From: Dicyema japonicum
Lineage: Eukaryota; Dicyemida; Rhombozoa; Dicyemidae
Direction: 5' to 3'
Assembly (NCBI GenBank): GCA_011109175.1
Contig: RDEW01000037.1
Location: 303,410 to 367,409, forward strand
DNA: 64,000 bases
Shown: positions 7,096 to 64,000 of the stretch, in pieces
Layout of the letters: each line of letters begins with the position of its first letter
Numbering within the stretch: position 1 is the first letter of the stretch
Notes under the pieces: model-generated
Database searches by the model: none
What the model was told of the DNA's origin: nothing
What the model saw: only the letters and a program-made list of their open reading frames with translations
Translations under genes and position numbers: made by a program

Positions 7096-7950
7096 ATGGA
7101 AGAAATAAAACGAGAATTGGCTATATTGGATGAAAAAAAGAAGGACGAAATCGAAAAATTTATAAAGTCTGCGAATAATATTTTCTGGAACCTCATCCGT
7201 GCCCGAAACCGCCTCTTTAAAAAAATCTTTAATTTTTGGCACAATACGGTATCCTTATTATTAAAATCATAGTTTTTGAACTTCCCTGAGATCAACTCAG
7301 TTCTATCTGACATTGATAAAGAACTCCTCCTCCAAGTCTCCGAATTTTATGTTGTAGACTTTTCTGATCACATTTATCTAATCAAAATGGTAGACGTTTT
7401 ACATTACTTTAGGTTTTCGGAGAGAATAAATACTTTCATAATCCGTTTCTCATAAAGAAGGCAACATTTGACTCAACCACTTCCTTTTACATCACCGAGG
7501 GCTGTGTTATCTCATGGAAGCCTGGAATGGTGGTCTATTCTCTTAGTTTTAGGACACTGTCTGTTCGGCCGAGACAAAATCCCTCCTACGTTGGTTTCAG
7601 AAATCTTCAGCAATCGACGTCATTGCAAAGTTAATCATAGAGAAGTTGTGGACTAATCCTCTTCCTTATTTTCTTGTATGGTGGGAGGTCACTTTTAGGG
7701 AGGAAAACTGTCTGCTGACCAAATTGTCATTAAGAGTGACTATGAGTTGGATGAGGATGCTGTTCTGTTTGATGATGAGGACGGTCAATCGTTACTTTCA
7801 GAGGACCTCAATGACAGAGAAGTTGAACTAATGAAACTAAACGGAATGACTCATGCATTAATATTCCAGGATAATGCCAACAGTGAATCTCCACAAGGAG
7901 ATGAAGAGTCTACTATGGATTTAGATGATTCCTCTAGTTCTGAATTTTAA
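7096..7950 (+). CDS. SET/NAP-family histone chaperone
   Basis: Five exons (7096-7248, 7273-7389, 7413-7529, 7553-7675, 7699-7950) give 253 residues in one frame; the introns are 24, 23, 23 and 23 nt, all phase 0. The N-terminal helix (MEEIKRELAILDEKKKDEIE...) leads to IFNFWHNTFLNFPEINSVL, matching IPNFWVTTFVNHPQVSALL of SET. FGENKYFHNPFL corresponds to FDENPYFENKVL, SLLRWFQ to SFFTWF, and LWTNPLPYFL to IWPNPLQYYL. The C-terminus is acidic and serine-rich (DEDAVLFDDEDG, MDLDDSSSSEF), as in the family. Expected role: nuclear histone binding and chromatin remodelling. It is slightly shorter than animal SET, with a weaker acidic tail. The first ATG in frame is used as the start. Confidence 0.9.
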
Positions 7951-8399
7951 CAAAGTTTTTATCAAAATTTAATTAATTATGGTAATAAGTGTATGATTCT
8001 TAATATAAAGTGATCTATTCTGGGGGATTTTGTGTTTATCAGATATTTCAATATTTTGAATATTGTATATTTGTATCCACCGTTTAGTCTATTTGTTAGT
8101 AAATTTATTACTGTAATTCTATTATGTCGGTTAGAATGCACAGAATGTTTACTACTTCTTCAATCCTTTACATTAGTGAGTAATGAGTACTTTTGTGTTT
8201 GTTCCACCAAATCCTCCATTTAATGAACCTGTGCATGTTTGTCGTTTATAGTAGTAATCGTAACGATGTTCTAATGGTCGATGCTTGTTTTATTGACTAA
8301 TAATTAAAATATATTACTATTAATATATTATTGTCTACTCGTAGCATAAACTATGATTTAATGTGTTTCCTTAATCAATACACTTAGTTAATTACTAAT

Positions 8400-8640
8400 G
8401 GAATACATCTCATTACCCCAGGATCACTGAGTCTTAAGTCAGATTCACAGACACTTTTTTCCAAGTATCCGCCATCATAGGAACCCCTCTACGGAAGTAT
8501 GGAAGATCATTTTGTATGTCGGCCTAATTTTAGCACTCTCTCTTACAGGTGGGTCACATTCGCCTTTTAGGAAAAAGTCAAATAGCAGAAAGGAATCCTT
8601 TACCAGGCAAGTATCGTTGTGGAAATCAAACCCCCAATTA
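8400..8640 (-). repeat. divergent SINE-2-like repeat
   Basis: The order TTACCCCAGGATCACTGAG, GAACCCCTCTACGGAAG, GATCATTTTG, ACAGGTGGGTCACATTCG parallels the reversed SINE-2 copies (GGAAACCCCTCCAGTGG, GATCCTTTTTCGTG, ACAGGTGGATCACATG). It is highly diverged. Confidence 0.4.
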
Positions 8641-8719
8641 TTATTATTACCTCCAGGATCACTGGGCCAAAAAAAATAAATAAAAGGTTTTCAACTAACT
8701 AAGTTATCCCAGACCGACA

Positions 8720-11232
8720 AGGAAGGGGACGAGTCATGTGGGGTCGAGAATCCTCTTCTCATTGGACATGCCATCGGCTCAAAATTTTTGTGATTGTAGA
8801 TATTTCGATAGTGTATGGAATAGAAGGCAGCTCGGTAAACTAGCCTCCTTTAAAAGTTTCCGATGTAGTTCGATTAAGAGATTCTCAATGGGCTGGATTT
8901 TGTGTACTACGGCCTCCTATCCTTATTGCGGTCTCCTCGATTGCGGGTAGTTTCAATTGGGAGGATCGTGAAATCTGCATTACCCACGAAGGACTTGCAT
9001 ACGTCATCGTTGGTTGGATAAATTGTTCATAAATCGTGGCAAGGCCACCAGTTTAATCTCTAAGTATTTTTAAAGCATTTTTAAAATTCTTATTTTCCTC
9101 AGAGCAGAAGTTACTATATTCTCAACATGTCAGATAAAGGTGAGTTCCTGGTCAAAAGTGACTCCCAGAATCTTCGGTGTTTTGTTAATAGAAATAACCT
9201 CGTTCGTCATATGGATTTCTGGTTTGACACAGCTGTCTTTGTAAGTGATAAACAGCGTGAGAGGACTTAGTTGCTGATGTGTCGATTCTCCGCTTCGAGA
9301 GCCATAGTTCCAACTTGTCAAGCATTATTTGAGCGGACTGAGTCGCTGATTGAATGGTTCTGTCCTCGGAGGCAAGAATAATATCGTCGGCATAGGAGAG
9401 GATTAGATAGTTTTCATTACAGGTTTGTGGCATGTCGTTTATGTAGAGATTGAAAAAGGCTGGCGATAGTGGGGATCCTTGAGGGACTCCATTTGGTATG
9501 AGACGGGATTTTGACTTATGTTATTGCAATTGTCCACGTCTCCCATTTAAGAAGTGGCAATCCATAGTTTTATGTTTGGGTGGATGCATGTATCGTAAAT
9601 TTTCTCAGTAAGGAGTTTTCTTGAGACTGTGTCGAAAGCCTTTGTTATATCAACAAAAACCAAGACTGTTCGTTAATGTGGTTTAGTGGAATTGAATCTT
9701 TCCGCAATGAACTGGCACAGGGACGTTAGGTATGTTGCTGTGGAGTGTTTAGCCCGGAATCCATGTTGGAAAGGAGAGAGCGGGATGTAGTCTTTGATAT
9801 TTTCAAGAACTAATCTTTCGAGTATTCGGGAAAGTGAACATAGGATCGAGATTGGTCTGTAGGAAGAGGGTTCATTTTCGGATTTTCCTGACTTCAAGAT
9901 CGGTTTGATGTATGATCTCATCCAGACATCCGGAATAATGTTCACATTTATTGACACTGTGAATATATAAGCAATTAAATCTAAAGCAAGAGGTCCTAGA
10001 TGCTTTAGTTCCGTTGTAGAAATATTGTCTGGACTTCGGGCTTTTGAGATTCGGGCCTTTGATATTGCCCATTGGACGTCCTTCGCCGTAAATATGGTCC
10101 ACACGTATGATCATTTCGGTTTTGTTCTGTTTAAGAGTACTTGGTGTTCTTTGGAGTGGTTTTTATGAGCTATGGAAACATAGTATTTCATTAAGGTGTT
10201 TGGTTGTAATGATATCCCATTTTGCGGTTCATCAAAAGACCTTTTGATAGACTTGATTTTGTTCCAGACCTTCTGTACTGACGGATTTTCTGTTAGGGCA
10301 ATTGATAGTTCTGTCCAGCGTTTCTCGTTTGTTTTACTGATATATTTGTTAATCTCCTTGTTTAGTGTAAGAATTCTTATTATATCCTCCTTCGACGGTA
10401 TGTTCTTTTTCTTTAAATAGTTTCTTTCTTTGACTAAATGTTTGGCTGTTTAATTGAATCGCCTGTTTGTCGGTTGTCTTCCCATTGGAATAAATAATTT
10501 TCTTGCTTTTTGAATGATTAAGAGAACTGCTTTATGATGTTGTTTAGTGATGAGGCTGCATGTAGTTTTGATAACTTGATCTGCATGTCAATATAGCTCG
10601 CAAATCTTGGCCAGTCAGCAAGATTATAGTTTATCAAAGTAGGAAGTGACCTTCGATAATTTGATCTTGTTTTTATTTGTAAAATGATTGGATTATGATT
10701 AATCATAGTTTCGTATTTCACGGTCCATGAAAATGAAGAAGACAGAAGGGGAGACGCGATTGAGACGTCAGAGGATGACGGTTTATTACTTTGTCTTGAG
10801 AGGGTTCTTGTGTGAAAGTTAGGGTCGTTTAGGATGCAAAAAATTCCCAACTCTTCGATTAGCATATCTTCCCGCCTGTTTGACGTCTGACCTCTCTTAG
10901 GTCACCGTAAATAAGAACGTTCATTAATGAGCTGATCGACGAAAGTTTTGGGTAAGTGGCTGATGTTGAAGGAGGTAGATATCAATTGATCAGAGTAAGA
11001 CGTAACCTTGGGAGTTGGATTTTTGTGGCCAGAATTTCGATACTTTCATGGTTTTGGAGGCGGTTTACGTATTTGGTGATATCTTCATAAGGGATCCCGT
11101 TTTGTATGATAGTTAGTAAGCCTCTCCCAAGTTTTCCACATTTATCTTTGGGGATAACTGAATATCCACGAAATTTTAGAGTTGTGTTCTTACTTCTGAA
11201 TTTGGATTCTTGTAATAGAACTCCCAACTAAT
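8720..11232 (-). mobile_element. LINE-C: APE endonuclease plus reverse transcriptase, near complete but broken
   Basis: Reading on the minus strand: the endonuclease lies at 11227-10518 (IPKDKCGKLGRGLLTIIQNG, then RLTLINIYLPPSTS, later HNPIILQIKTRS). The reverse transcriptase spans 10104-9130 with SPDNISTTELKHLGPLAL, SSYRPISILCSLSRILERL, QHGFRAKHSTATYLTSL, FVDITKAFDTVSRK and the catalytic LILSYADDIILASED, then KILGVTFDQELTF. Frameshifts separate the pieces. The layout is that of jockey/I/CR1-type LINEs. The 3' part to about 8720 resembles 12720-12990, suggesting a shared 3' end. It is not functional as assembled. Confidence 0.85.
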
Positions 11233-15980: not shown

Positions 15981-15999
15981 TTTTCCACGTAAGAATAAG

Positions 16000-17889: not shown

Positions 17890-18863
17890 ATGGAGGTTGC
17901 TTTTATTGCATACATTAGGAAGAGGAACAAATTGAATTCACACATTGGGACAGTAGACTCTACAAAGAAGGAATAAAAGCTACGAGTCAATACAATGCAA
18001 AATTACTAAAAGAGAGAAGCTCTCGAGTTCCATTTTTCGACAGACTCACTTGCATATACCAATACGACAGCGCTCTCTGGAAGACAAAGGAGGACCGAAT
18101 CGCTCCAGATGTCCTGGAATATAAAAGATGCAAATATAAACCGCTTCCTCCATTTTCAAGCCTCCAGACCGGGACTGTTTTTGAATATGACTGTAAATAC
18201 CGAAATTTTAGATATTTAGCTCGGAATGTCGCTGATATCGACGTAGAAAGTACGAGCCGACAATTTGATCCGTCGACCTCTGAGGATGAGAGTGTCTCCC
18301 TCGAATCTGACGAGTCTGACGAATTTTCCAGTCGGAAACGGAGGGCTAGGAAAGTTTCACATGTTAATGATGATTAGAGTCAGCCTCAGCGTGCAAAATG
18401 GAAGCCTCCCATGAGCCAATCAATGAATGAGGCTGAAGGAGAGGAGAGTCTGAAATCTGACGCCATGTACTGCGACTTTTGCTTGGGAACCACCACGAGT
18501 AGATCAGGGCAGACCGAGTCTCTAATTACCTGCAGCAATTGCAAGAGATCTGGTAAAGGATTTGATGACTTTTAGGTCATCCCAGCTGCCTGAACTTCAC
18601 CGAGCACATGGTCTCCAGGATTGTGACTTATAATTGGCAATGTATTGAATGCAAGTCCTGCACAATTTGCGGAACGTCTGACAATGACGTTTGAGTTAGT
18701 TTATTGTGCAGGAAAAACTGTTATTTTGTGATGACTGTGACCGCGGATATCACATGTACTGTCTAAGACCCCCACTGACTGAAGCTCCAGATGGTTGTCT
18801 ACCTTCGTTAATTTATTAGGAAAATGGTGTTGTCATCTATGTATGTCCGCCTATAGAAGTTAA
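17890..18863 (+). CDS. DPF/requiem-like protein with tandem PHD fingers (BAF45-type)
   Basis: Six exons: 17890-17895 (only ATGGAG), 17919-18353, 18378-18552, 18576-18688, 18712-18793 and 18820-18863. Introns are 23, 24, 23, 23 and 26 nt, and the joined frame is 284 residues. The 24-nt intron 18354-18377 removes an in-frame TAG. The N-terminal requiem domain shows [19 protein letters not shown] (DPF2: HNYNARLCAERSVRLPFLD). The tandem PHD fingers show [62 protein letters not shown] and GKWCCHLC, with the zinc ligands present. The Kruppel-type C2H2 finger of vertebrate DPF1-3 is absent; a basic/acidic linker takes its place. Expected role: reading acylated histone H3 tails in SWI/SNF (BAF) complexes. 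Confidence 0.92.
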
Positions 18864-19945: not shown

Positions 19946-22800
19946 GAACTTCATCGTTAAATATGATAAGAAGGAATACGGAATTTTGCTCCTAGTAGCA
20001 TTGGCGGGCTCGACGGAATGAGACCTGTCTACCTGAAGGATCTGACCTCTTTGTCCGTAGGAGACCAGGGACTTCGTCTTACAAATTCAGTTACTTCACT
20101 TATGAATCGGATCATGTCTGGAGTTCTTCCCGAAGTTATCCGCCATGTTCTATTCTCCGCCAATTTGATAGCCTTTGATAAGAAGGGAGGCGGAGTACGA
20201 CCAGTTGGGGTCGGGTTTGTCTTCAGAAGACTGGCGGCTAAAATTGCCTCCAGACATTCTATTCCACTCGTCACAAAATTCTTGAACCCCCCTCAAGTAG
20301 GCGTCGGTATTCACTTGGGATGCGAGGCGGCTGTCCATTCAGTGGGGACATTCATTAACCAAAGTATAGAAGATTCCCATGGACATGTCCTGGTCAAACT
20401 GTAACCCTCTCAGGTTGCACCAATGTTCAATCTGGTCAACATACTCCCGGATTCTTCCTTCAGATATGGAAGATTTTAGAGATGTGTCTACCACGATTAC
20501 GTCATCCGCATAAATAAAAAGACTAGTATTAATATTCCTCGAACGTGGAAAACTCGCCATGAATATATTAAACAAAATAGAACTCAAAACCGAACCTTGT
20601 GGTACTCCCTTCTTGAATGATTTCAGAATTCAATAGAAAGAAACAGTCTGCATAGCCTCTCCCGGGACGAAAACCCCACTTCTCCAGAATCAGAAAGTCA
20701 TTCTCTTCTATATGTCCGCTTAGCCTTTTGAAAATGATACGTTCAATCACTTTCATGAAAGAACATATTAAGCTAATAAGTCTGTAGTTTGCAGGATCTC
20801 TCATTGGCTTCTCTGGTTTTGGAATCATCCTCATAACAGCTTTCTTCCATATTAAAGGGAAGTGGTAAACATCCATCATAAAGACATTGCGGATAGTCAA
20901 ATAAATTATCCGGACTTTCTTTGATAAGTTTCATTGATATGTGGTCATATCCTGAGCATTGACCTTGTATTCCTTGATAGCCGTCATCACTTCAAGACGC
21001 TGACAGTGCTATCAGCAATAGGCAGTTCCTCGTCGGAGTGTTTAAATAGATCAGCAGACATCTTCTTTTTGTCATCAGGGATCAAACTCAACGGATCTAC
21101 ACCCTGAATTTTTTGCTCGTCGGAGTGTTTAAATAGATCAGCAGACATCTTCTTTTTGTCATCAGGGATCAAACTCAACGGATCTACACCCTGAATTTTT
21201 TGGAGCTGATCCCTGAGTATCGAAGGTGTTTCCTCCGTCATGCATACTTCCCCGTCTGGTTTATTCAATATATTTTTTCTGCTCCCGACTTTGGACACAT
21301 TATCTTTTGATGGCATTTCCATAAAAAGGGATTCTTCATATCAATTTTCGCAGCCTCAGCCTTCCACATAATGTCAGTTTCCTCCTTCCATATACTGCTG
21401 ATTGCCTCCTTCATCATCCTGATTCTTCTGATATGGATTCCCCTGTGTTGAGAGATGCCCTAATATTTTCGAATTTGTGAGTCAGTCATACAACCTACCT
21501 TCATCCTTACTTTTCGGGGACTACCTAAATGACCAAACATCCGCCCTCAACCTATGGTATCTGGATAATGCGGTCTTCAGAGGACCCCCGGATACTGTTT
21601 TCCGGGATTTGGAAGTTTTAATTCCAGCAGTGTTGGAAGCTGGACTGGAATTAAATTAGACTAAATGCGAAATCTACAATTGCGGACTTTCAGAAGAGAA
21701 ATATTCAAAAGCTTTGTCATGTTTCTGAAATTTACTGCCTGGAAGTATTTCCACACCTGATGAAGAACTTATATTCCTCGGATCCCCAATCACCATAAAT
21801 GCAATGGGAAGAGCTATGCGTGAAAAACGACTGTTACTCGAAGAGAGTCTGGACCGCTTGTGTCTACTTGACATGCATACAGCATTATTTCCTCTGAAAA
21901 ATAGTCTCAACGTACAGAAACTCGCATATGTCTTGAGGACTCTTCCCTATTTCACCCATTGTGGCCAACTCGCACAGATTAACTGGATCTTCCGTAAGAC
22001 ACCGGAACGTATATTCAACGTCCGGTTCAATGATTATTCATGGAAGCAAGCCACGCTGCCAGTGAGACTGGAGGACTTGGAATTCGCAACCCTGTGGACC
22101 TCTCTCTCCCTTCATACCTATCATCGCTAGTGGACTGTAACTCCCATGTCAAGAGGATTCTACACTCTATACCTGAATTCTCTATTGACAAGGACGCCGG
22201 CCATGCTCGTGAGGCCTGGAACCGCACTTATCAGCTTTCCCTGCCTTCCTCGTTTTCTCAGCTAACATCGCCGTGCCTGTTTTGGCTTACACCCTCTCTC
22301 CTGCAGATTTCCCGGACACATGGCCTTGAAAAAAATCGTTAGGCGAGCTTTGGACGCCGCCGGCTCGAACCTGTCGGTCTTTGCAGGCGGGACGGGAAAC
22401 GACCAGATGGGATTATAATCTTCCCTTTTGATAGGATTATAATCCGGGAAACCTTTTGTCTGGAACGTTACCTGCATCGGCACATTTGCCTCTTGCAACC
22501 TACTCCAAAGTCTCTCTGGAGCCTGTTCTCCCGCTGAGAAAGCCGAGAAGACGAAACGGGAAAATTACGCGGTTCTACCCAACGATTTTTTGTTTGTTCC
22601 ACTTGTCGTTAAGACGTCTGGTTTTTTTTGCGCCTGCGACGCTGGAATTCTTGAGTCGTCTAGGGAATCGGGTAGCTGTACGAACAGGAGAACCTCGTGA
22701 TCGCTGCTGGTTATTTAAGCGAATCTCGCTCGCCATCCTGAGAGGGAATAGTCAGGGCAGCCGCTATGTAACCGTTTACTCTTTTCTCTTTCCTTAATAA
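19946..22800 (+). mobile_element. RT-A retroelement copy A2, split by LINE-B
   Basis: The 5' half (20018-20404) reads RPVYLKDLTSLSVGDQGL, RLTNSVTSLMNRIMSGVLPE, FDKKGGGVRPVGVGFVFRRL, VGVGIHLGCEAAVHSVGTF and ends HGHVLVKL. After the LINE-B insertion it resumes at about 21440 with CPNIFEFVSQSYNLPSSLLFG, then ALNLWYLDNAVFRGPPDTVF (catalytic YLDD is YLDN here), LIPAVLEAGLELN, DEELIFLGSPI, NSLNVQKLAYVLRTLPYF, WKQATLPVRLEDLE. The C-terminal nuclease-like part (22360-22790) includes VWNVTCIGTFAS and NDFLFVPLVVKTSGFF. Stops and shifts make it inactive. The RT family is common in invertebrate genomes, but its formal clade is unclear to me. Confidence 0.75.
20405..21440 (-). mobile_element. LINE-B (APE-type LINE RT fragment), nested in A2
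   Basis: The minus strand reads WKEETDIMWKAEAAK near 21400, then KPDGEVCMTEETP. It continues with RT motifs FPLIWKKAVMRMIPKPEKP, NYRLISLICSFMKVIERII, ILEKWGFRPGRG, then SSILFNIFMASF and SLFIYADDVIVVDTS (catalytic YADD intact), and ends inside EHWCNLRGLQF. It is 5'-truncated. A segment of 29 codons (KIQGVDPLSLIPDDKKK...) is tandemly duplicated at 21029-21203. The stretch between motif 2 and the GxPQG box is deleted. Confidence 0.8.
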
Positions 22801-24060: not shown

Positions 24061-25830
24061 TTAAAGATCAGAACCAACTTGATCCTTCTTAGATGCCTTA
24101 TAATTGCCTTCTTGGGCAGACAGCAACTTTTCAATTTCCTTAGTTTTCCGTCTCCGTTCATTGTCACTGCAAATAAACCCACAACATACGCAAAGATGGT
24201 CTCCTTGAGTTTCCTTCTTGCCTCACATCCACTATCCCTTCTGATCTCCCTTAACTGAGATCTCTTCTTCCGTTTCTCCATTTTCATATCTGAGGTCACC
24301 CTCATCCTACACTATAACCGTATATCACATACGTTTCGCCAATCCGCGGAAAATACTGCTTTATCTGCTTCACTTCCTTAGGGGGATAGACCAAATAGAC
24401 TTTAACGCTCTCTCCACAAATCCTATCAAATGTTTCCAGCACATTTGTTAACAACCCCTTCCATAAATAACAACTCAACCTTAATATGGGAAGGGACTCG
24501 TTTATTCTCACAAACAGAAATAATAGTAGTCCTCAGATTATGGAATAAATCTTCAAATGAAGGCAAATGCTTATAAATATCAAAAATATTGTGCAAATGC
24601 ACACATATGGAGTTCAGAATAACCACACTACTCTCAATCACCTAACAACCTCGTCATATCACATATTCCAGTCAAGTCCAGTTCAGCCACGGGAATCACA
24701 GGAGTCTCCGTGATTTCAATGGCCTTTGCTGTGAGAAAGCCAGAATCACTTTGAACGAAAGATTCCAGAACATTTAAACACGCACCGATCAGTTGGGGAA
24801 CCAAAAGCTTGTCATCCTTAACAATCTAGGCTACAAAAACGAGACAAACTTCATAAACAAGCTTAATGGAGACAACCGTGTTGAAAATTCCCTCCATCGT
24901 TAAAAAAGGAGCCGAAACTAAAAAGGGGATGAATTTCGAAATGTTGATTTTAGGTTTTTTCGATTTCTTGCCCTCAAAATTAGAGGAGGACTCAAAGTTA
25001 AGTATGAACTCACTGAATAATCATAAAATATCAACAATTCGTCTTCCAAGGCGTCAGCCGACCGCAGAATGCGCTGTTTCCTCATTCTTACATATTCAGT
25101 GTCCTCGAATCCAACCAATTCTTCCTTCATTTCATTTTGTTTCTCAGTTTTTTCCAATTTGTTAACGTTCTGGACATAAAAATACGGAGATACAGATTTC
25201 GGAGGACATGACTTTAGATTAACAACAAGGGAGTCGTACTGATCCACCTTGGAAAAAGGGATATCTTTTATTGACTTTTGGCTGATTGTGGTACCCTTTT
25301 CAATTCCACTCCATTCGAAATTGAGCCCGTCGAGGATATGGAAGCTCTTGTCAGCCATTCTCCGTGATTTAGCCTGGAATATGAATTCTATTCCATACTT
25401 GACTGGTCTTTGATTTACTGATAATTTCTGTCATTCGATCATGCTTTAATTGATCAGGTTGAAGCTTTTCAGTGGTTTTTCTGTTATTTTGGTTAATTTC
25501 CCGGTCAAATGATTCAATTTGCGATAGAGACTGACCAACATTAACGTAAGCGTCGTCCTCGTTGTCAGAAAGATTGAAACATGTTTTCCTTCTTTTTGGT
25601 TTGTCGTTTAGAAACGTAAAATTTCCAGTTTTTGACTGTTTTCTAGATCTTTCTGCAACTCTTTCCTCTCTCTATGGGTTTAGTCGTTATGTTACTTTGG
25701 TGTTACTAGAAGTCCTTAGAACGCTCCTTGAGTCCTTGCCGATTATATTTTGTTTTGTTTTGCTGAAAAAGACATCAAAGGGATTTTTATTTATTCCCTT
25801 GTCAGCATTTTTTAATATTTGAGATGGCAT
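24061..25830 (-). CDS. NOP14: NOP14, small-subunit processome / 40S biogenesis factor
   Basis: Ten exons on the minus strand join into 515 residues. Introns (plus coordinates) are 25672-25695, 25374-25398, 25170-25193, 25013-25035, 24817-24849, 24628-24649, 24458-24479, 24307-24332 and 24167-24189 (22-33 nt). The N-terminus KNPFDVFFSKTKQN matches SNPFEVKVNRQKFQ, VNVGQSLSQIESFD matches THYGQSLADIEKHN, and SQAKSRRMADKSFHILDGLN the kinase-like EDALELTEKLDQ region. KDIPFSKVDQYDSLVVNL matches DELPYTFAAPESYEELRSL. Further on, LLVPQLIGACLNVL, SICVHLHNIFDIYKHLPSFE and KRSQLREIRRDSGCEARRKL follow the family, ending NERRRKTKEIEKLLSAQEGN. Human NOP14 is 857 aa, so the acidic middle is strongly reduced. 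Expected to act in the nucleolus in 18S rRNA maturation. The 33-nt intron and the 25170-25193 intron are the least certain. Confidence 0.88.
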
Positions 25831-25924: not shown

Positions 25925-27660
25925 AAATATGCTCTCGAAGCCACAAGAACCATATTCCACCTTCTTCACTCCCGATGATGTTGACAAAGCTATTAAACTA
26001 CGTATCAATCAGCCATAAAGATTTTTTTCGCTCTCCACATGTTGAACGGCGCGGGCCGCAACAAAAACCGTATTCCACCTTCACCTCCCATGATGTTGAC
26101 AAGGCTTTAAATTGCTACATCCCACTCGTGCTTGTGGTCCCGACGGTATTTGCCCTATTCATATCAAACACCTTGGATTTCAGGCACGGGCCATATTATC
26201 AAGACTGTACAACGAGTCTATCAAATACAATACGCTACCTAATATATGGAAAAACTTTCTGATTATGCCAAACCTAAAGCCCAGAAGTCCAAAAGACGTT
26301 CCCTCTTCTTATCGCCCCATCTCAATAACTTATGTTTTATCAAAAATATTGGAAAAGTTTGTGTTAATGCGCATTTCTTTTGTTCTACATCTACCAGAGT
26401 TTCAACATGGTTTCAGGCAGACCGTTCGACAACGACTCATTTTGTCTATCTCCCAGTTTATTACTGACGGCTTCAACATGAGAACACACTTACGGACGGC
26501 CTTAGTATCCATCGATATATAGAAGGCTTTTGATTCTGTTCCGAGGAAACTCCAAACGCATAAGATTTTTAATTAGAACTTACATCCAAACATCAAGCTA
26601 TGGTTGGAAAACCTCTTAACTGAGCGACGCGGAAGGGTCCGGATTGACAAAACCACTTCAAAATCAAGACTACTCCCCAATGGGGTCCCGCAAGGCTCCC
26701 CTTTATCTTCTCTCCTTTTCAACTTATTTTTACATGACCTACCTACTACCAATGACCAGGACACTATGTTTTTATCCTATGCGGACGACCTAAGTATCGC
26801 TGCAAGAGATAAATCTCCTTCCATGGCTGTAGCAACTGCTCAGACACACCTAAACCGAATTTGTGACTGGCTATCTGCAAATATGTTATGTGTATCAGCA
26901 TTCACTTATGAATCGGATCATGTCTAGAGTTCTTTCCGAAGTTATCCGCCATGTCCTGTTCTCCGCCAAAATTATTCACTACGGACAGAAGGTTTAAAGG
27001 TGGGCTTGAGATTTCCATCGGAAACATTCCCATCCCTTCTACACGGACCCAGAAGATCCTTGGTGTAATTTTCGACTCTCTGTTGACGTTCTCGAGTCAC
27101 ATGGAGGAGGTGCTTGCCAAGGGTCTTCGGAAATGGAACATTCTGAATGCGATGATAAAGAAGAGCCCTTTCCCCCCGGCTGCTTGCGTAGCAAGGTCTA
27201 TCAATAAGTCATCGTACCTACCATTGAGTATCCCTGCTCCGCCTGGAGGATTGAGATTCCCCCTTCGAGAGTGGACCGTTTGAACTCCCTCAAGCGGAGA
27301 ATTATGCACCACACGGACATACCCCATTGGCGACCTTGCTTCTGATAAGGCTACGTTGAAAATTGGCCAGGGTTTCCTACGTTTCTGCAAGGAACTGGGA
27401 AACCCACTCAAGGAAAAGGTGGCTCATGAAGAGGAATTTCGGTCGGTAATAAAAAAGTGCACGCCGATTGAATTCCTTTGTAGAAGAAAGAGAAGACGCT
27501 TCCGGAGTGCGGTTGGATCATCAGAAGACTAAATGGAGAGAGTTCGGATGTTGTTGGAGGCTGGGATCACCTAATTAGTTAGTTTTGACCTATCTTTCCT
27601 GGTGGTCTTGGGGTTAAATAAATAAAGCCACACAGGCTCACTTAGATTCTGGTGACCTTT
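25925..27660 (+). mobile_element. LINE-E: APE-type LINE reverse transcriptase with a foreign insert
   Basis: RT motifs in order: ACGPDGICPIHIKHLGF (26112 on), SSYRPISITYVLSKILEKF, EFQHGFRQTVRQ, SIDI then a stop and KAFDSVPRKL, LLPNGVPQGSPLSSLLFNLF, MFLSYADDLSIAARD, then RICDWLSANML. Positions 26897-26968 are not LINE sequence but a piece of RT-A. The LINE resumes with LFTTDRRFKGGL, RTQKILGVIFDSLLTFSSHM and runs to a tail GTTGGAGGCTGGGATCACCT. The start has an imperfect local duplication (25930-26000 versus 26045-26115). It is inactive. Confidence 0.85.
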
Positions 27661-27920: not shown

Positions 27921-28319
27921 TAAATTTGTTATCGATTTTTGGATGTGGTGAAATCATGTAACCTTATTATAAATAAATTTTTCAACCAAAATAGGATTGA
28001 ATGCTTTCGCGGACGATAGATAATTGCGATTCCTCTTAATAAAACCATGAAATTTTTGTTTCCGATTACAATCACTAAGGATAATTTAATATCTTTTATT
28101 TTGAGATCGCATATATAAAAGATTTACTTATAATTAATCTTTTCCTATGATGGTCGTGGCATTTTTACATCTTTGAGCTGTTGCAATAGATCAGCTTTAC
28201 TCAGAAGGTTCCTAAAGAGTCTTTGATTTTCTCTGGGGAACAACACAGCTTTGCTCCATGTCACACAGTTAAAAATATTGACTACTAAAATAAAAATGAA
28301 CTTTTAAAAAAATTAAATA

Positions 28320-29790
28320 TTGATGTATCTAAAAATAAAAGTATACTCAATCTTGAGTACATATGAGTACATCTTGAGTACATATAATCAAGGGTCAAAA
28401 GTCGACTTATTCCTGTGGTCCGGACGGAATCCCTGCAATAGTTCTGAAAAACATAGGCCCCTATGCTATCATGGCCCTCACAAAAATTTTCAGCTTTTCA
28501 ATCAACGAAAATTGTATTCCTTTCATATGGAAGCTATCAAACATACGACCAATCCTGAAACCCGGGCGACCAAAGGGATCACCAGCCTCATACAGACCAA
28601 TATCTTCCTATGTGTTACATCAAAACTTTTGGAAAAGCTGATTCTTGAACTAATCAAACCATACCTTCCTGATGCACCTTTTCAACACGGATTCAGAAAA
28701 GGACACTCCACAGAAACGCATCTTACATGCCTTACAAATTTCATCAAGGATGGACTAAAGCGCAAACCTCATCAGAAGTCTTTGTTATGCTCCATCGATA
28801 TTGAAAAGGCTTTTGATACTGTCCCAAGAAAGCGTTTGACAAGGAATATCTTTACGTCAAAAATTCCAAACAACCTGAAAATCTGGATCGCAAATTTCCT
28901 AAATGGGAGAAGAAAAAAAGTAACTGCTGGAAAAACTAGATCAGTGACCAAGTTCCTTCCAAATGGGGTCCCTCAAGGATCTCTACTTTCACCACACCTA
29001 TTCAACCTATTCTTGAATAATATGCCCTCCCTTACCAGTGACGATACTCTGGTTCTGACATATGCAGATGATATAATCGTCGCACTCAAAGACCAGTGCG
29101 TTTACACTACTGTTTACCGGATACAAGCTTCATTGGACGATCTGAACTGTTGGCTCGTTAAGAACATTTTACATACAAGTCCCTAAAAGTCTTATACAAC
29201 AATTTTCACAACAAACAGAAGATTGACAAACTCCGCTCCATGTGTAACCATAAATGGAAACTCAATCCCCACGACCAACTCGGTCAAGATACTGGGCGTA
29301 ACTTACGACCCACTCTTGACCTTCAGCAAACACATCGACAACGTCATCTCCTCGGCACAACGAAAGCTAAATTTTGTTAAAACACTCCTTGGACAATATA
29401 ATGGGTGTTTCAACTCAAATTTGGACTCCTTCTACGTGCACTATATTCAATCGTCTCTAACTTACGGGTGTGCTGCATGGGGAACCAACTTATCAAACAG
29501 GAATATAGAAAAAATCAATACCTTCCAAAAATGGCTAGTAAAGTTTTGCAATGGTTTTCTTGGACACCTCTAAACCCTACACCTTTTGAGGAATTAGTGA
29601 GGAAAACCGGAGCCTTACTACCCTTCAAAAAAGTTAGAAACCCCCGCCCAATCTGGAAATGCGTTGGAACCTAGGAAGAACATCGAGCAACAATGAGATG
29701 GCTACTCGAGGCGGCCGAAATCACCTGACGGATATGTAGTTAATTAATTTGTCGGTGATTTGTGGTTTTTAATAATAATATCAAATTCTT
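28320..29790 (+). mobile_element. LINE-F: APE-type LINE reverse transcriptase
   Basis: From about 28610 the frame is open: LCVTSKLLEKLILELIKPYL, PFQHGFRKGHSTETHLTCL, SIDIEKAFDTVPRKR, PNGVPQGSLLSPHLFNLFL, LVLTYADDIIVALKDQ. After one stop, NSVKILGVTYDPLLTFSKHI and YIQSSLTYGCAAWGTNLSN follow. Upstream (28400-28600) the fingers region is frameshifted. YADD is intact and the decay is mild, so it is one of the younger copies. The 3' end is around 29790. Confidence 0.87.
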
Positions 29791-31515: not shown

Positions 31516-32000
31516 CCAGCTGACAATATGGAATGGTTGATTCCCTTGACAACTACCAGAGAAATCCTGTCGAACAGTCACTCGGTTTCCCGACGCTTAT
31601 TACTCACTTTCGATATCATTGACCCAGGCGATCTTAGAAAAGAGACCGTATTGGGCCGGAAGACTTCGCTCTTCTCGACGACAACGTGCTGTACATGGAA
31701 TCTGAGGAGAGACTATTGTAGTAACCTAATCCACTTATAACTTAATCACATAAAAAGAATTTTTATTCAAATTCAAAACCAAGAAACCACATTAATGAAA
31801 ATCAGTCACTAACTAACTCGACATAAAGTCAGAAGGGCACAGAGAACCCGTGGTTGAGTATTAAGCATATATTGCTCAGCTGACTTGGCAACATCACAGA
31901 TAGATGGTTCAACAAGACAAACCTCAGCTACAGCGTCATCAAGGTATTTCTTCGACTAACAAATTAAAGTACCCTCATATTTTCTGTCTGAAGAACAGTC

Positions 32001-32320
32001 ACAACAGTAGTACATAACATACACTCAACATCTCCTGCTTTTATCACTGGAGTATTCTCGGAATGAGACTCACGTGGTTTGCACCTGCTGTTCTTTTCGC
32101 ACAATTCACGTGCGTCTCCGACCTTTAGACCTGAGTTAATTTTTCCATTCTAAAGTTTGCACAACAGTAGTACATAACATACACTCAACATCTCCTGCTT
32201 TTATCACTGGAGTATTCTCGGAATGAGACTCACGTGGTTTGCACCTGCTGTTCTTTTCGCACAATTCACGTGCGTCTCCGACCTTTAGACCTGAGTTAAT
32301 TTTTCCATTCTAAAGTTTGA
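32001..32320. repeat. 160-bp tandem duplication
   Basis: ACAACAGTAGTACATAACAT... through AATTTTTCCATTCTAAAGTTTG occurs twice, starting at 32001 and 32161, essentially identical. Nothing else was recognised in 31520-33150. Confidence 0.9.
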
Positions 32321-38388: not shown

Positions 38389-39288
38389 TCATGTCTCTCC
38401 CGATAAAATGCTTTCGATATACTCAGCCACAAACATGACGGAAGATCCAATTAGCATCCAAATGATAGACAGTGTCCTCACATAAATATCATTCGAGAAT
38501 ATACTCCCAAGGGGGAACTCATGGAAAAAGAGAACCTCCAAGATAAGTCCCGATGACAACACGTAAATAACCACAGACATTGTCGTAGTATTACAAAAGT
38601 CCAATTTATGAATAATGAGTCGAGTCAAAATAACCCCAATCGGTGAAGACAGAGAGAAAACAAGTCCACAAAGCACGTGCCAGATTTTCCGAAAATCCTG
38701 ATTCATAGTCTTGGCAGCCAAGGCCGTGGAGATGCAGAATCTGTGAGCCATTGTGGCCACAAAAAAGAGTGTGAACCTCTCCTGTTGAATTCCCATGGTG
38801 AGACCGTCAAAAAGTGAATGGATTGTGAAAACCATGAAAATGCTCATGTATTCAATTATAGTGGATCTCCTGTGGACATGGTCGTCTTCATAGTAAATAT
38901 ACAATTCTGAGGATTTTTCTTTTTTCATGTTAGAGAGAAATCCGTTTATAATAAGCAAAAGTAGGATAATCATAACTACAGAAAATGGAACTAGGTTAAT
39001 GCTTTCAAAAGAAGGCCAGCATTCTTTGATCCCTGTCTGGTAGTCCAATATTCCTTGAGGAAAGAGAATTCCAAGCGATAAGGCAAGGAGGATTCCATCG
39101 ACAAAACAAGTCCCATATCGGTTGCAAAAAAAAATCAAAGATTCGAATCTCCAGAGAATTCTATTTAGCAGATAAGGCAGGGAAAACATGATCAACGTTA
39201 TGATAAACATGGCTAGAACCAAACTAAACTCATACAGAGTTATTTTAAACACATTCAGCAAATACATAATGATTAAATTTCCCGTCAA
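38389..39288 (-). CDS. ZIP-family (SLC39) metal transporter
   Basis: A single uninterrupted frame of 299 residues. About eight hydrophobic segments fit ZIP topology, with a longer charged loop after segment 3 containing EDDHVHRR, a short histidine/acidic loop as in ZIPs. The signature segment FTIHSLFDGLTMGIQQ (residues 155-170) matches the HS..DG...G metal-binding helix of ZIP TM4. AHRFCISTALAAK (181-193) occupies the TM5 metal-site position. LVFSLSSPIGVILTRLI resembles the following TM6 of ZIP1-3. Likely imports zinc or another divalent cation across a membrane. It is unusual among the host genes here in having no intron. A start at 39288 gives the full TM1; an in-frame ATG eight codons on is also possible. 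Confidence 0.85.
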   Translation of the reverse strand: MTGNLIIMYLLNVFKITLYEFSLVLAMFIITLIMFSLPYLLNRILWRFESLIFFCNRYGTCFVDGILLALSLGILFPQGILDYQTGIKECWPSFESINLVPFSVVMIILLLLIINGFLSNMKKEKSSELYIYYEDDHVHRRSTIIEYMSIFMVFTIHSLFDGLTMGIQQERFTLFFVATMAHRFCISTALAAKTMNQDFRKIWHVLCGLVFSLSSPIGVILTRLIIHKLDFCNTTTMSVVIYVLSSGLILEVLFFHEFPLGSIFSNDIYVRTLSIIWMLIGSSVMFVAEYIESILSGET

Positions 39289-39423
39289 AAATTTATAAAT
39301 TTAAATAATAATTTAACTTAATTAAATCATTTATATAAAATAAATAAATTATAATTATTTTTTCGAAACATATTATCAATTCAGAGGAGTTCTACCTGGA
39401 CTGCACTTCCTTCAAGTCCAAGT

Positions 39424-46199: not shown

Positions 46200-48365
46200 G
46201 TGATCCCAGCAAGCTACAATAGAGGCTTAGCTTGGCACGATGTTCTTCCCTCGAGTCCACGCAAGTACGCATCGCTCGTATAACTGGATCTTCGTAGTCG
46301 CAACATGTTCCTTGTTTCACGAATTAAGGATTCCAGAGGCATTGGAGACTGAACTTTCCAAAAGTCCATCGTTTCGTAATCTTAAAGCCATTTTTTGGCT
46401 AGTTTTGATTTTCATGGAATTTGTCAAAGATAAACTGGCTTGAGAAAGTTCCCGAGCCATCTATGGGAAATGCTGGTGATTTCTGAGCAGTAGATCTTCA
46501 TCGTTAAGAGTTTTCTGGGAACCGAGTCAAAAGCCCTACGGATGTCAACCGAGCACAATAAAGTTTTGAGGTGCCTGGACTTTGGGGCTTTGACCCAATT
46601 CCCTCCATAATAAAGTTAGTGTATATTTTTCAAGTGCGTACTTGTAGATAGGTATTTCTTAAATCTGTGCAGGAAGGATTCTTTAGGTGAATATGGGAAG
46701 ATGTGGTCCAAAACCATTTTCTCAAGAATTTTCGACAAAGCGCATAATAGGGATATTGGCCGATAAGAAAAAGGGGACTCTTTGTGTTTTCCAGGTTTCT
46801 AAACTGGGTGGATGTGGGCCAACTTCCAAATAGTTGGAATTGTGTTTCTATTTATGGATATGTTGTATATCTGTGTTAGTACTGTGAGTGCCCTGAGTCC
46901 AAGCTTTTTGATAACAATCATAGGAATTTTATCTGGTCCGCTTGAGTAGGTTAGTTTTTGGGATTTAATGGCATTTTCAACTTCCATTGGTGAAAACGAT
47001 GTATGTACATGACATCTTAGTTTCATCAGTGACAGAGGGACCCTCGTACTTTCTATGGAGTAAGTAGCGAAGAACTTCATCATTCTATCAAGTTCATTTT
47101 TGCAGAAAACATGACTGTTTCTCTTCTCAGGGTTTTTGATGAGGGAGAAAGTCTTCCACATAATTGACAAGGACCCCTGTTTGTTAAACACGGAGGTCAT
47201 TTTTCTTCGTTTGTCTATTTTCCTTTTCTTAGATTTTCTTTATTTCGCTATCAAGCACTCGAATTCGGTATATAATTTCTGGTGATGGCCTTTGACGCTC
47301 TTGAGTCGATTACGTTCATTCATAATCCTCTTCGTTTTGTGATCAAAACGTTTGATGTAGGATTTGATTGATCCTTCCCTGATAAATATCTTCATTGCCT
47401 TATGGATCTTTTTGTTTACATAGTATACTGCATTATCGAGTGAGTTGAAACGTACAGCGTTGAAATCGGCTAAGTTCATGTCCACATATTGAGCAAAGCT
47501 TTTCCAATTCACGTTTCTGTTATCCATGAAAGTGTTTCGTCTTCTTTCCGAGATTAGCGTGCCCTTCATCCGAATGAAAATCGGATTGTGGTCGCTCTGG
47601 AAGTCATAATTCACAGACCAGTTGGCAAGAGAAGCAATGTTAGGGGTGACAAGGGTAAAATCAATTGAAGTCGTGTTGTCATAAGCTCTATAGGATGTTC
47701 TTGTGTTCATCCGACAGTCGTTAAGGATTATGAAGTTGTCCAGTAGAGATAGAAGGAGATTTCGCCTTACATCAGCAGTTTGGCTTTTGTACCAGGTCGG
47801 GTGTTTCGCGTTGAGGTCGCCACATATCAACAAATGTTGGTATTGGAGAAGGTAAATTCCTTTGGGCAGGAGCTGGCGGGGGTAATGTACATGTTCGCAA
47901 TTGTGATATTTTCAATTCTTGGACGGATGGTAATTCCAATGTATTCCACAGGAGACGGAGGATTGTAATGTATTGTAATCGTGTGCCCGATCTCACTTGT
48001 CAAGAGAGTAATAACTCCTCCTCCACGGTTGAACTGGCGCTCTTTCTTGATAACAGTGTATCCGGGAAGTGTTGGAGTGGTGGAAGAGTGTGCCAGTTTC
48101 GTCTCCTGTGGGAGACAAACGTCGATCGTATTTCTTCAAGAAATTCCTGAGCTCAATTATCTTTCCTCTCAATCCATTTATGTTGAGCTGGATGATGGAA
48201 AGAGATTTCGTTTGATGTCTTAGGTTTGATGACTCCAGAGATGATTAAGGGCGTTTGAGAGAGCCGTCCAACAAAAACATTCTTCTTGGATTGGGGTGAG
48301 CAAATGATTCGTTTTATTGTGTGACTAATTCCACAGTTGACGCCACCAGAAACGGCGAACCACAT
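46200..48365 (-). mobile_element. LINE-D1: APE endonuclease and RT with internal deletion
   Basis: Minus strand: the endonuclease starts near 48200 (IIQLNINGLRGKI, one frameshift), then LLICGDLNAKHPTWYKSQTA, NDCRMNTRTSYRAYDNTTSI and NYDFQSDHNPIFIRMKG, with the catalytic D-N and SDH boxes visible. The RT begins at 47200: YSSGPDKIPMIVIKKLG, TIPTIWKLAHIHPV, SYRPISLLCALSKILEKM, SVDIRRAFDSVPRKLL. At about 46450 it jumps to the C-terminal motif DYEDPVIRAMRTCVDSREEH, so the YADD part is deleted. Confidence 0.85.
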
Positions 48366-54632: not shown

Positions 54633-56537
54633 ATGTCTACTGAGATTGACTCATGCGAGTAGGTTTATTAAAATAACCCTCATAATATATACCATAACTA
54701 TTAATTTAGTGTTATCAGACTAATACAACAATTTCTGAAGGAAAGTAATCTCTCTAAATCCTATGACGTCCTTACAGTAATAAACCATCTAACCTTCAGG
54801 AAGAATCTGGTGTCTATCTAAACACAGTCGAGTCAACTGATGTCTTCATTCAGGATGTAATTCAGGGAAACTGGGACAAAGTACTCATAACTGTGAGATC
54901 ACTCAAACTCCCAGAAAATAAGATAATCGACTTGTACGAACAAATATGTCTCGAATTGATCGAATTGAGAGAGTTTGGCGCCGTCAGGTCCCTTCTTCGT
55001 CAATCTGAACCAATGTTACTTTTGAAATCTACAAATCCTGAAAGGTTCCTTCGTTTAGAGACCTTTATGGGTCACCCAGTCTTCGATCCCAGAGTATTCC
55101 TTATATAATATGTAAGGTTTACGGAGAAAGCAAACAACAAAAGCGGAGTGACCTCGCCCAGTCTCTCTCTAAGGAGATCCACGTGGTTCCTTCTTCTCGA
55201 TTACTTTTCCTGTTGGGCCAGTCTTTGAAATGGCAGCAGGAACAAGGTCTTCTACCTCCTGGTTGTTATTTTACTTATATCAGGTAACTCCATCGACATC
55301 TTCAGAGGAAAGACGGGGACCAAGACTGAGGAGGTTGAACAATTCCCTAAAGAAAACAGCAAAACCATAAAAGTACCAGATTTAACATATTTCTAGTTTG
55401 GACAAAAATCACATGCCAAAGTGGTACAGTTTTCGCCAGATGGACAGTACTTGGTCTCTGGAACAGTGGACGGCTTTATTGAAGTATGGAACTTTACCAC
55501 AGGGAAACTAAGAAAGGACCTTCCATATCAAGCCAACGAAAGTGGTACAGTTTTCGCCAGATGGACAGTACTTGGTCTCTGGAACAGTGGACGGCTTTAT
55601 TGAAGTATGGAACTTTACCACAGGGAAACTAAGAAAGGACCTTCCATATCAAGCCAACGATAACTTCATGATGATTGACGATTCTGTTTTGTCTTTGGCA
55701 TTCTCTAAAGATTCTGAGTTGTTGGCCTCTGGTAGTTCCTCGGGAGAAATAAAGGTACCACGTGGGCTATAATATAGATTTGGAGAATATCGAACGGAGA
55801 TGTGTTTAAAAGGTTTACTAATGCGCATTCTGCTGCTGTCACGTGTCTAAACTTTACTAAAGACTCTGCACAACTGTTGAGTTCCTCTAATGACAAGTCA
55901 ATCAGGTTTTTAGTGGTTAATTTGTAGGATTCACGGACTCAAGTCTGGGAGAATGCTTAAAGAATTCCTTGGTCATAATTCGTATGTTAACTCAGCTATT
56001 TACCTCTCAGATTCACTTCACGTTGTCAGGTACCCCCAGTTTGCTTATATAAGTGCTTCTGCCGACAGCACAATCAAAATTTGGAGTATAAAGACATGTG
56101 AGTGTCTCAACACTTTCAAAACATTTGGTGGTAACTCTGGTGATTCTGCCGTGTTTTTTTTGTCTCCTTTGATGATGGTAGATGGACAGTTTGCTGTGTG
56201 TAATCACTCCAATTCACTGTTTGTAATGGATATACATGGACAGGTCTATTATTCATTAATTTGTAGGTTGTGAAGACGTTTTCATCAGCAAAGAAGGATA
56301 TTTTCTTTTTATCAGCAGTTTTGTCCCCAAAAAACGAATATTTATACGGTGTAGGGGAGGACAAAGTGCTTTATTGTTTTTCGTTGGGGAGTGGAAAGTT
56401 GGAGAGAACGATATTTGTTAATAGTTGTTTGATTGTAGATTAACGGTGGAGAGGTGATTGGTGTATGTCATCACCCATTCCAGAATATGTTGGCGACGTA
56501 TTGCACTCACGGATTAGTTAAGTTGTGGAAAGCCTGA
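54633..56537 (+). CDS. SMU1: SMU1 spliceosome WD40 protein
   Basis: Eleven exons: 54633-54658, 54710-54776, 54800-55093, 55117-55261, 55284-55372, 55397-55754, 55778-55905, 55928-56029, 56054-56243, 56267-56416 and 56439-56537. Introns are 51, 23, 23, 22, 24, 23, 22, 24, 23 and 22 nt. Without a 121-bp tandem repeat in exon 6 (55419-55539 versus 55540-55660), which breaks the frame, the total is 508 residues against 513 in human. The LisH/CTLH N-terminus reads [20 protein letters not shown] and [20 protein letters not shown]. The WD repeats include [31 protein letters not shown] and [17 protein letters not shown]1 partners RED/IK in activating the spliceosomal B complex and is linked to splicing of short introns, which is notable in this genome. 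Confidence 0.96.
55419..55660 (+). repeat. 121-bp tandem duplication inside SMU1 exon 6
   Basis: AAGTGGTACAGTTTTCGCC through CATATCAAGCCAACGA occurs twice with no difference seen. The length is not a multiple of three, so it shifts the reading frame. All other exons are in phase when it is counted once. Confidence 0.95.
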
Positions 56538-59900: not shown

Positions 59901-59957
59901 ACCCCGGATAAACCGAGACAGAAGTTAAAGTAAACAACTATTTAAGTGTATCCAGCT
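59896..59957 (-). repeat. SINE-2 fragment abutting LINE-G
   Basis: ATAACCCCGGATAAACCGAG followed by GTGTATCCAGCT: only the hairpin end of SINE-2, in the opposite sense to LINE-G and joined directly to its tail. A 15-bp scrap of the same end (TTATTAACCCCGGATAC) lies at 57195-57211 just before LINE-G. Confidence 0.6.
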
Positions 59958-60394: not shown

Positions 60395-60440
60395 AATAGT
60401 AGGGGGTCGACTTATACACCGGAAAATACGGTAATTCTTT
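60395..60440. repeat. short transposon-end-like motif
   Basis: GGGGGTCGACTTATACACCG followed by GAAAATACGGTA resembles the end motif of some pogo/Tigger elements. There is no partner end or transposase beside it. Confidence 0.25.
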
Positions 60441-60469
60441 TTTCATTTGTCCACCGTGAAAAATCGACA

Positions 60470-60960: not shown

Positions 60961-60977
60961 AATAAATTTATTTCATA

Positions 60978-61700: not shown

Positions 61701-61813
61701 AAAGCTTAGCAAAATTATGTGCAATATAAGAAATATTAATACGGTCGAGAGATAGTGGAAAGTATGTCAAATAATTATATATATCTGAATCTGCGCCAAA
61801 CTAACTGAAAAAT

Positions 61814-62825: not shown

Positions 62826-62846
62826 TTGAATAAATATTTTACAAAA

Positions 62847-63478
62847 ATGCAATATTGCAGTAATTGTCGTAAAAATGTATCTCTGCTTTTATTTTTCAGA
62901 GATTCTCGGGGGACTCAGATTTGCTGGTCCTAAAAGTTGCCATGTTTCTAAGTTTCAGGAAAGTTGTGAAGATTTCAATGATTTAAATGAAATTTCCTTG
63001 TCTAAACGTGATGACCATGATGATGTATTCGATGAGTCCTCGATTTCGTCATACGACCAAACTTGTATGCCTTTAGATTCAGCTGATAAATTGTATGTTA
63101 TCAAACAAGACCACCTAAAGTCGAGACTTGAAAGCCATGAATTCTTATGCATGCTGAAAAATATTTCACAACTTCTGAACTTCAAATCTGTTCAGACATA
63201 CTTACTAATAATTAGAAGTTACAGAAAGATCCCCCGTCTACAGGCAAGGAGGTAATCCTTATTAAACTATATTTTAGACGAAAATTTCATGGGCGAAGCG
63301 GTCTTTGATCGAGAAAGAGCATGAATTTGTAAAATTCTTCCTTAAAAAAGTACATAATTGGGTGAACTAATGCTAGGAACATGAACTCCCAAATTATGAT
63401 AACTTCCCGGAAATTAAAATTCATTACAGCACATTGGATCACGTAGTTGATTGTTGTAAAGTGTTAGGTAACCAATGA
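62847..63478 (+). CDS. unrecognised protein (cluster gene 2)
   Basis: Five exons: 62847-62868, 62900-63189, 63216-63251, 63278-63349 and 63377-63478. Introns are 31, 26, 26 and 27 nt, and 173 residues are in phase. It starts MQYCSNCQILGGLRFAGPKS with a C..C pair and further cysteines (CHVSKFQESCED), then a charged DDHDDVFDESS region, and a C-terminal part KRSLIEKEHEFVKFFLKK and IHYSTLDHVVDCCKVLGNQ. The intron at 63252-63277 follows GGCAAGGAG. A zinc-binding start is possible. The start is the first ATG after the upstream stop, 21 bp away. The family is unknown. Confidence 0.65.
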
Positions 63479-63524
63479 AGTCTGTATCCAGAGTAAAATA
63501 TCAGGGGAAATACACAGCTCAGAC

Positions 63525-64000
63525 ATGACAGATAAAGAAAGAAGTGATTCTGAAGCAATAAAAGAGACCAGCACTGATTTTGAGGAGTCGGAAGAATTTA
63601 GTAGTTGTGAAAAGAATGCTGAGTCCTTAAGAAAGGGTATAAACGACGTCCTTGTTTTAGAGAAAGAAAAATCTTATAAGGAATTTGTAGAATCAGGGGA
63701 AATAAAATTGGACCAAACTACCTTTGAAGCAGTTGATGTATTAAAAGATGTCCAGGTTGAATTGATTGCGGTGGAAACTCAAGTACACCAAGTAAGTGTA
63801 TTTTAGTCGAGTGAGAGTCCTAAAGGTGCAATACCTGATGCTCAAGGTGAAGATGAAATGTCAGTTCAAACTCAAAAATCAAAAGATGAGGTTTTTGAGT
63901 GTGAGTGATGTAGCCTAAAATTATAATTGGCACTGGGGATGTCGTACCAGACGTATATTTACGAAGTGAAACCGAGATTTCAAAAACAACTTCGCCGTTT
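63525..64000 (+). CDS. unrecognised acidic protein, 5' part (cluster gene 3, runs off the window)
   Basis: Exons 63525-63782, 63807-63890 and 63914 to the end of the window. Introns are 24 and 23 nt, the first removing an in-frame TAG and the second a TGA and a TAG. The protein is rich in Glu, Ser and Lys: MTDKERSDSEAIKETSTDFE, KGINDVLVLEKEKSYKEFVE, then PKIIIGTGDVVPDVYLRSET. Low complexity prevents a family call. It begins 46 bp after the stop of cluster gene 2. Confidence 0.6.

Follow-up and report, generated by a model that had tools for sequence, protein, structure and literature searches.

Miniature introns of Dicyema japonicum with a candidate branch-site element at a compressed position

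How might a spliceosome deal with introns of 22–25 nucleotides (nt)? The question is raised by a 64,000-nt stretch of the genome of Dicyema japonicum (contig RDEW01000037.1, positions 303,410–367,409 of the forward strand), hereafter the window. In a sequence-only reading of this window, very short introns with GT-AG ends had been placed throughout several genes, among them SMU1, itself reported to help splice short introns. These introns were said to have neither a clear polypyrimidine tract nor room for a branch point, so that splice-site recognition must work differently. The same reading proposed comparing intron lengths more widely and searching for U2 small nuclear RNA (snRNA), SF1 and U2AF. 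The assembly surveyed here comprises 64.67 Mb in 191 contigs. Its GC content is 37.1% for the window, and 20 loci of 10 kb sampled elsewhere give 37.3%. The published genome has 67.5 Mb, a GC content of 36.7% and a mean intron of 38.2 bp (PMC2222250, PMC6543705, PMC6736024).

Introns were delineated by spliced alignment to homologous proteins, scored with BLOSUM62 and the same cost for every intron; the aligner knew nothing of splice-site letters. Seven genes were aligned: SET, DPF and SMU1 from the window, and PLRG1, CDC40, WDR33 and LIS1 from other loci. The identities of the anchoring proteins are secure, with E-values of 8.7e-116 for SMU1, 3.7e-163 for PLRG1, 5.9e-116 for LIS1, 4.1e-145 for CDC40/PRP17 and 1.7e-121 for WDR33. 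The alignments opened 42 insertions, 33 of which measured 22–28 nt. In order, the lengths were 22, 28, 23 and 22 nt in PLRG1; 26, 22, 24 and 22 in WDR33; 23, 22, 25, 23, 22, 22 and 23 in LIS1; 23, 23 and 26 in the PHD part of DPF; 24, 50, 24 and 23 in SET; 254, 263, 75, 25, 10, 10, 25, 23 and 24 in CDC40; and 51, 23, 20, 22, 24, 121, 23, 22, 24, 23 and 22 in SMU1 (reference P0014). The nine insertions outside the 22–28 nt range are thus found in CDC40 (254, 263, 75, 10, 10), SET (50) and SMU1 (51, 20, 121).

A second round was run with a modest reward for GT/GC-AG ends; a 10-nt piece of CDC40 and a 121-bp copy in SMU1 were dropped, and two introns were slid to GT-AG. The resulting homology-anchored set contains 36 introns from the seven genes, all but one (51 nt) between 22 and 28 nt: eleven of 22 nt, thirteen of 23, five of 24, three of 25, two of 26 and one of 28. 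With the two slid introns included and the two dropped rows left out, all 36 have GT-AG or GC-AG ends. The single GC-AG intron, of 26 nt, was placed by homology in WDR33 (L046, 1286-1311 of the reversed locus). Sixteen of the anchored introns lie in the window (three in SET, three in DPF, ten in SMU1), and 15 of these measure 22–26 nt.

A hidden-Markov gene finder gave a second view of intron lengths. Trained without supervision, it had strayed into transposon-like sequence and spurious introns of great length, and it was seeded from WD40 exon matches instead. When only GT/AG ends were allowed under a flat prior of 15–45 nt, 70 of 184 introns fell at 22–25 nt, against 23.7 expected (p 8e-18). 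With a flat prior of 15–300 nt in gene loci, the main class was already 22–25 nt, accompanied by spurious long introns. The trained model predicted 165 introns in 56 genes over the window and the 20 sampled loci, with a mode of 23 nt and 149 introns at 20–31 nt, a figure that leans on the trained length prior. It found 51 genes with 153 introns in real sequence and 11 genes with 35 introns in reversed sequence. Window genes of at least 80 amino acids (aa) contained 39 introns, 36 of them of 22–28 nt; a few of the 39 are doubtful, one lying inside the tandem copy of SMU1, one in a transposon-like region, and two measuring 117 and 204 nt.

All 256 pairs of terminal dinucleotides were also ranked. 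In gene-anchored loci GT-AG came first (18; other pairs, mean 3.4, maximum 13), decoy pairs there partly echoing true introns shifted by one or two bases (TT-AT, 13). In a weaker test on held-out, transposon-rich sequence, with a flat 15–300 nt prior and flat motif, GT-AG came only fourth, with 16 introns of 20–29 nt (other pairs, mean 7.1, maximum 19). Nothing is claimed about intron length modulo 3, as the anchored set holds only 36 introns and the gene finder is blind to stop-free introns of 3n length.

The 5' splice site is very weak. Positions +3 to +6 carry 0.51, 0.12, 0.27 and 0.16 bits in the anchored set, and the dicyemid site has been published as the weakest known (PMC2483917). There is no real polypyrimidine tract either, as had been noticed: the longest pyrimidine run has a median of 4.5–5 nt, with 5 nt in the anchored set, where it reaches at least 8 nt in 2 of 35 introns. 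The sequence-only reading of these introns as GT-AG, with a mode of 22–24 nt and dicyemid-like, is borne out by the homology-only alignment, the flat-prior gene finder and published dicyemid introns. Miniature introns are confirmed; they have been on record for dicyemids since papers of 2007, 2008 and 2019 (PMC2222250, PMC2483917, PMC6543705, PMC6736024). The published introns are likewise uniform, near 25–27 nt (mean 26.2 ± 1.9 nt, n = 16, median 27; PMC2222250, PMC6543705, PMC6736024), while the mode found here is 22–23 nt. The short introns are the known part; the parts worth following are a positioned element within them and a set of minor-class snRNAs.

The positioned element has the form TNAY. 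With its A at -6 to -12 from the intron end, it is present in 30 of the 35 short anchored introns, against 15.0 ± 2.8 after shuffling of intron interiors, and none of 2000 shuffles reached 30. In a set of 144 distinct introns of 21–28 nt, called by the gene finder blind to the acceptor, 97 carry it (shuffles, 59.3 ± 5.5, maximum 75). Only 21% of 3817 exonic AG controls do. The excess is sharply placed: 35 of the 144 introns have the A at -7 (9.8 ± 2.9 expected from shuffles) and 24 at -8 (9.9 ± 3.1), with a weak excess at adjacent positions and none from -13 to -20. The pattern stayed in place when introns that also belong to the anchored set were taken out (n = 125; 31 against 8.1 ± 2.7 at -7 and 20 against 8.4 ± 2.9 at -8). 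The branch-like A is followed by 6–7 nt to the intron end. In the anchored introns that carry TNAY, the median distance from the intron start to this A is 15 nt (interquartile range 14–16). A degenerate branch-site-like element thus occupies a fixed, compressed place, which puts in doubt the published trait of introns without branch signature and contradicts the claim that there is no room for a branch point. With TNAY so placed, there is no need to suppose that recognition does without a branch point.

Several components expected of a major spliceosome were looked for in the genome. Among the matches listed for U2 snRNA, 22 of 25 are over the cut-off, and the branch-pairing sequence is the canonical GTAGTA in all eight copies read. 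The SF1-HH and RED_N profiles each have one match (80.5 and 64.3 bits). A U2AF2-like gene on contig C114 is matched exon by exon by pieces of the U2AF_lg profile (profile positions 168–313 and 353–510). The statement that recognition must work differently was too strong.

The preferred reading, to which a probability of about 70% is given, is that these are ordinary U2-type introns miniaturised to 22–25 nt, with a 3' end condensed to one compact block and with activation aided by SMU1-RED. The major spliceosome would remove them using canonical U2 branch pairing. The block, in which the branch A would be fixed 7–8 nt from the AG, would be read by SF1 and by U2 pairing, and the contact between U2AF2 and a tract would be small. 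A 23-nt intron cannot hold U1 on its 5' site and U2 on its branch at once, so initial definition of the sites probably takes place across exons or sequentially; exon definition, or engagement of one site after the other, is the step that we infer. SMU1-RED would then help to activate B complexes in which the spacing between 5' splice site and branch is far under the human limit.

Several observations weigh against this reading. TNAY at -6 to -12 is missing from 5 of the 35 anchored introns and from 47 of the 144 gene-finder introns, so that either there are introns that do without the element or a number of intron calls are wrong, and the spacing of about 15 nt is drawn from the introns that have it. 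None of the U2AF_lg pieces exceeds the whole-protein cut-off, and the best U1 match (69.0 bits) falls just below its cut-off of 69.5. A search of the genome with the HCNGP (SAP30BP) profile gave no match, its control being equally silent.

Matches to minor-class snRNAs are also present. Matches to U12 (85.4 bits, L049), U11 (67.6 bits, G000:C1:1591391-1591510) and U6atac (37.0 bits, L050) each exceed the gathering score; in control genomes the same profiles gave weak matches in a few bacteria and archaea, all of which stay below the cut-off. Introns of this class were sought with the U12-type pattern ATATCCTT / TTCCTTAAC. TATCCTT-N{0,30}-TTCCTTAAC occurred 7 times, against 4 in the reversed control, and the N{30,60} version once, against 3, so that the totals are not above control. 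The gaps at the eight sites are 26, 24, 27, 25, 23, 29, 7 and 37, six of them within 23–29, a clustering with p 5e-5 for a band that was picked after the gaps were known. Two of the eight sites, picked as the most intron-like (L051 and L052), were read. They would be AT-AC introns, 50 and 48 nt long, across which the spliced frame stays open, and their branch A would lie at -8. A further U12-like candidate of 52 nt in L020, from a lenient scan of all sequence fetched, was judged to be at chance level. The first SET intron, of 24 nt, opens with GTATCCTT, the 5' site of the minor class, yet lacks a branch site of that class; this start may be due to chance or to a converted intron.

The U11, U12 and U6atac matches resemble what accompanies minor (U12-type) introns elsewhere, and the two pattern halves and AT-AC ends of the candidate introns would do so too. 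Among surveyed minor introns the shortest average, just under 42 bp, is that of Blastocystis (PMC10639083); the difference here is that the two candidate cases, of 48 and 50 nt, stand in a genome where major introns measure about 23 nt. The word 'dicyema' does not occur in the text of that survey. Pan-eukaryotic surveys have left out introns shorter than 30 bp. No paper on minor or U12 introns in dicyemids was found in the open-access PMC literature, and in PMC2483917, which names both Dicyema and the minor spliceosome, the two terms stand apart in the passages concerned.

A more far-reaching picture, which is held only tentatively, is that both spliceosomes act on miniature introns with a geometry specific to each class. 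Major introns of about 23 nt would have the A of TNAY at -7/-8 with about 15 nt before it, and minor AT-AC introns of about 50 nt would have their branch A at -8, some 41 nt from the intron start. As the human B complex can span about three times the major-class spacing, the dicyemid B complex would be rebuilt or the sites engaged sequentially, and SMU1-RED would be essential for most introns.

Another route, rather unlikely but with a human precedent (PMC8363638), is that an SPF45/RBM17-type factor takes the place of U2AF, as it does in human short introns whose polypyrimidine tract is truncated. The tract is indeed truncated here, as seen from the few nucleotides after the A and the short pyrimidine runs, and ciliates with short introns have kept both RBM17 and SMU1 (PMC12862383). 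The retention of a U2AF2-like gene argues against a replacement, as does the unmatched HCNGP profile, though its control was silent too.

The introns might also be real and have no branch motif. The signal would then be a by-product of T/A-rich composition, any A would be used, and length together with nonsense-mediated decay would serve as quality control. This would agree with the survey of 2008, which counted WCTRAY/CTRAYN hexamers in 41 Dicyema introns and saw "no signature of branch points" (PMC2483917), whereas a positioned branch-like element is present here. It would also agree with the introns devoid of TNAY in the anchored set and with the rarity of the classic CTRAY, found in only 10 of the 144 introns because T or A usually stands directly before the branch-like A. 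However, the TNAY excess outlives shuffling of each intron's own interior and is confined to -7/-8 and, weakly, to their neighbours, and gene-finder intervals of off-peak length have no excess (22 of 87, against 27.8 ± 4.0 in shuffles), which makes the explanation improbable. That the element is of TNAY rather than CTRAY type may explain why the hexamer count found no branch signature.

Assembly artefacts do exist in the window. Eighteen two-copy tandem duplications (85–403 bp; for example 3914-4270, 36456-37260 and 55418-55660) were counted there, against four in the 20 sampled loci, and 8 of the 10 single Ns of the window sit no more than 3.5 bases from the middle of one. Scaffolders can join contigs with the overlap left unmerged, which gives tandem copies. 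The D. japonicum assembly was built with SSPACE and GapCloser (PMC6736024). The duplications are probably uncollapsed contig overlaps, and one of them breaks SMU1. That the short intervals themselves are frameshifts or assembly artefacts rather than introns can nevertheless be dismissed almost entirely, as they share GT-AG ends, a mode of 22–25 nt and a positioned motif across many genes, and homologous proteins align straight across them.

The gene models of the window are listed in Table 1. The 121-bp unit of SMU1 contains no AGGT and hence is not removable as a GT-AG intron of exact length; an origin of an SMU1 intron by tandem duplication was ruled out on this ground. The copy is most likely an assembly artefact of the same kind as the other duplications. 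SMU1 has 1013 homologues at E <= 1e-60, with lophotrochozoan relatives among the best matches; as a conserved animal gene, its presence in the window is uninformative by itself. The sequence-only reading was right that the gene is there, but its point that exons sum to whole codons throughout holds for SET and DPF, whose protein lengths match, and not for SMU1 as assembled. The NOP14 protein, given as 515 aa, is shorter in the present model, and the ACP, SMKR1 and lectin-like genes were not confirmed.

Table 1. Gene models, introns and tandem copy in the window (positions in the window; intron lengths in nt in parentheses)
Feature	Position	Strand	Size or number	Basis
SMU1 (span of its introns)	54659..56438	+	ten introns	spliced alignment with SMU1 of three animals, a single intron being slid to GT-AG; human SMU1 5o9z E 8.7e-116
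SMU1 introns 1-5	54659-54709 (51), 54777-54799 (23), 55094-55116 (23), 55262-55283 (22), 55373-55396 (24)	+		
SMU1 introns 6-10	55755-55777 (23), 55906-55927 (22), 56030-56053 (24), 56244-56266 (23), 56417-56438 (22)	+		
Exact tandem copy in SMU1 WD40 exon	55418..55660	+	121 bp	shifts frame; no AGGT in unit; no N
SET/NAP-like gene	7096..7950	+	253 aa	Pfam NAP E 2.6e-10; human SET 7mto E 1.9e-17
SET introns	7249-7272 (24), 7390-7412 (23), 7530-7552 (23), 7676-7698 (23)	+		gene model; first three also spliced alignment
DPF-like gene	17890..18863	+	284 aa	Pfam PHD E 9.6e-20, DPF1-3_N E 1.5e-11; DPF3 2kwj E 1.5e-48
DPF introns	17896-17918 (23), 18354-18377 (24), 18553-18575 (23), 18689-18711 (23), 18794-18819 (26)	+		gene model; last three also spliced alignment
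NOP14-like gene	24061..25434	-	394 aa (model)	Pfam Nop14 E 7.2e-17; human NOP14 7mq8 E 1.4e-5, C-terminal part only
NOP14 introns	25374-25398, 25170-25193, 25013-25035, 24826-24849, 24628-24649, 24458-24479, 24307-24332, 24167-24189	-	eight, 22-26 nt	gene finder only
Small predicted gene	31809..32191	-	111 aa	gene finder only; no Pfam match
Introns of 111-aa gene	31950-31972 (23), 32150-32173 (24)	-		gene finder only
Predicted gene	62847..63908	+	245 aa	gene finder only; no Pfam match
Introns of 245-aa gene	62877-62899 (23), 62936-62958 (23), 63252-63277 (26), 63301-63504 (204, doubtful), 63637-63660 (24), 63783-63806 (24)	+		

Amid these intron-rich genes, the window has an intronless open reading frame for a ZIP zinc transporter of about 300 aa (38389-39300, minus strand; Pfam Zip E 8.1e-14). 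Fragments of non-LTR (long terminal repeat) retrotransposons were recognised by RVT_1 matches at 28317-29183 and 26577-26924 on the plus strand and at about 20395-20614 on the minus strand, and by Exo_endo_phos_2 at 47243-47911 on the minus strand. A weak RVT_1 match, below the cut-off, lies at 9676-10110 (minus strand). Pfam searches over whole 17–27 kb frames of the minus strand matched a reverse transcriptase only.

Miniature GT-AG introns with canonical GUAGUA in U2 are also known from the ciliate Stentor coeruleus, where the branch consensus is weak and the position of the branch A near-invariant (PMC9505925). The Stentor introns measure 15–16 nt and have their branch A at base 10 or 11; those described here belong to an animal, measure 22–25 nt and have about 15 nt before the A. 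Human short introns that depend on SMU1/RED (PMC6692369) or SPF45 (PMC8363638) are comparable in their short spacing from 5' splice site to branch or in their truncated pyrimidine tract, and SMU1 and RED are matched here. They differ in that the human spacing is about 50–70 nt. In human extracts about 50 nt between 5' splice site and branch site are needed for efficient assembly, which fails at 35 nt, and introns with short spacing require Smu1/RED (PMC6692369).

If the A at -7/-8 is the branch point, an animal spliceosome would manage with a distance of about 15 nt from 5' splice site to branch, against this human requirement. A structural question would thereby become testable, namely how a B complex forms without a linker between the U6/5' splice site and U2/branch helices, and the published reading of dicyemid introns as devoid of a branch signature would be corrected. 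The minor-class snRNA matches, for their part, suggest that an animal genome, though strongly reduced, has retained a minor spliceosome.

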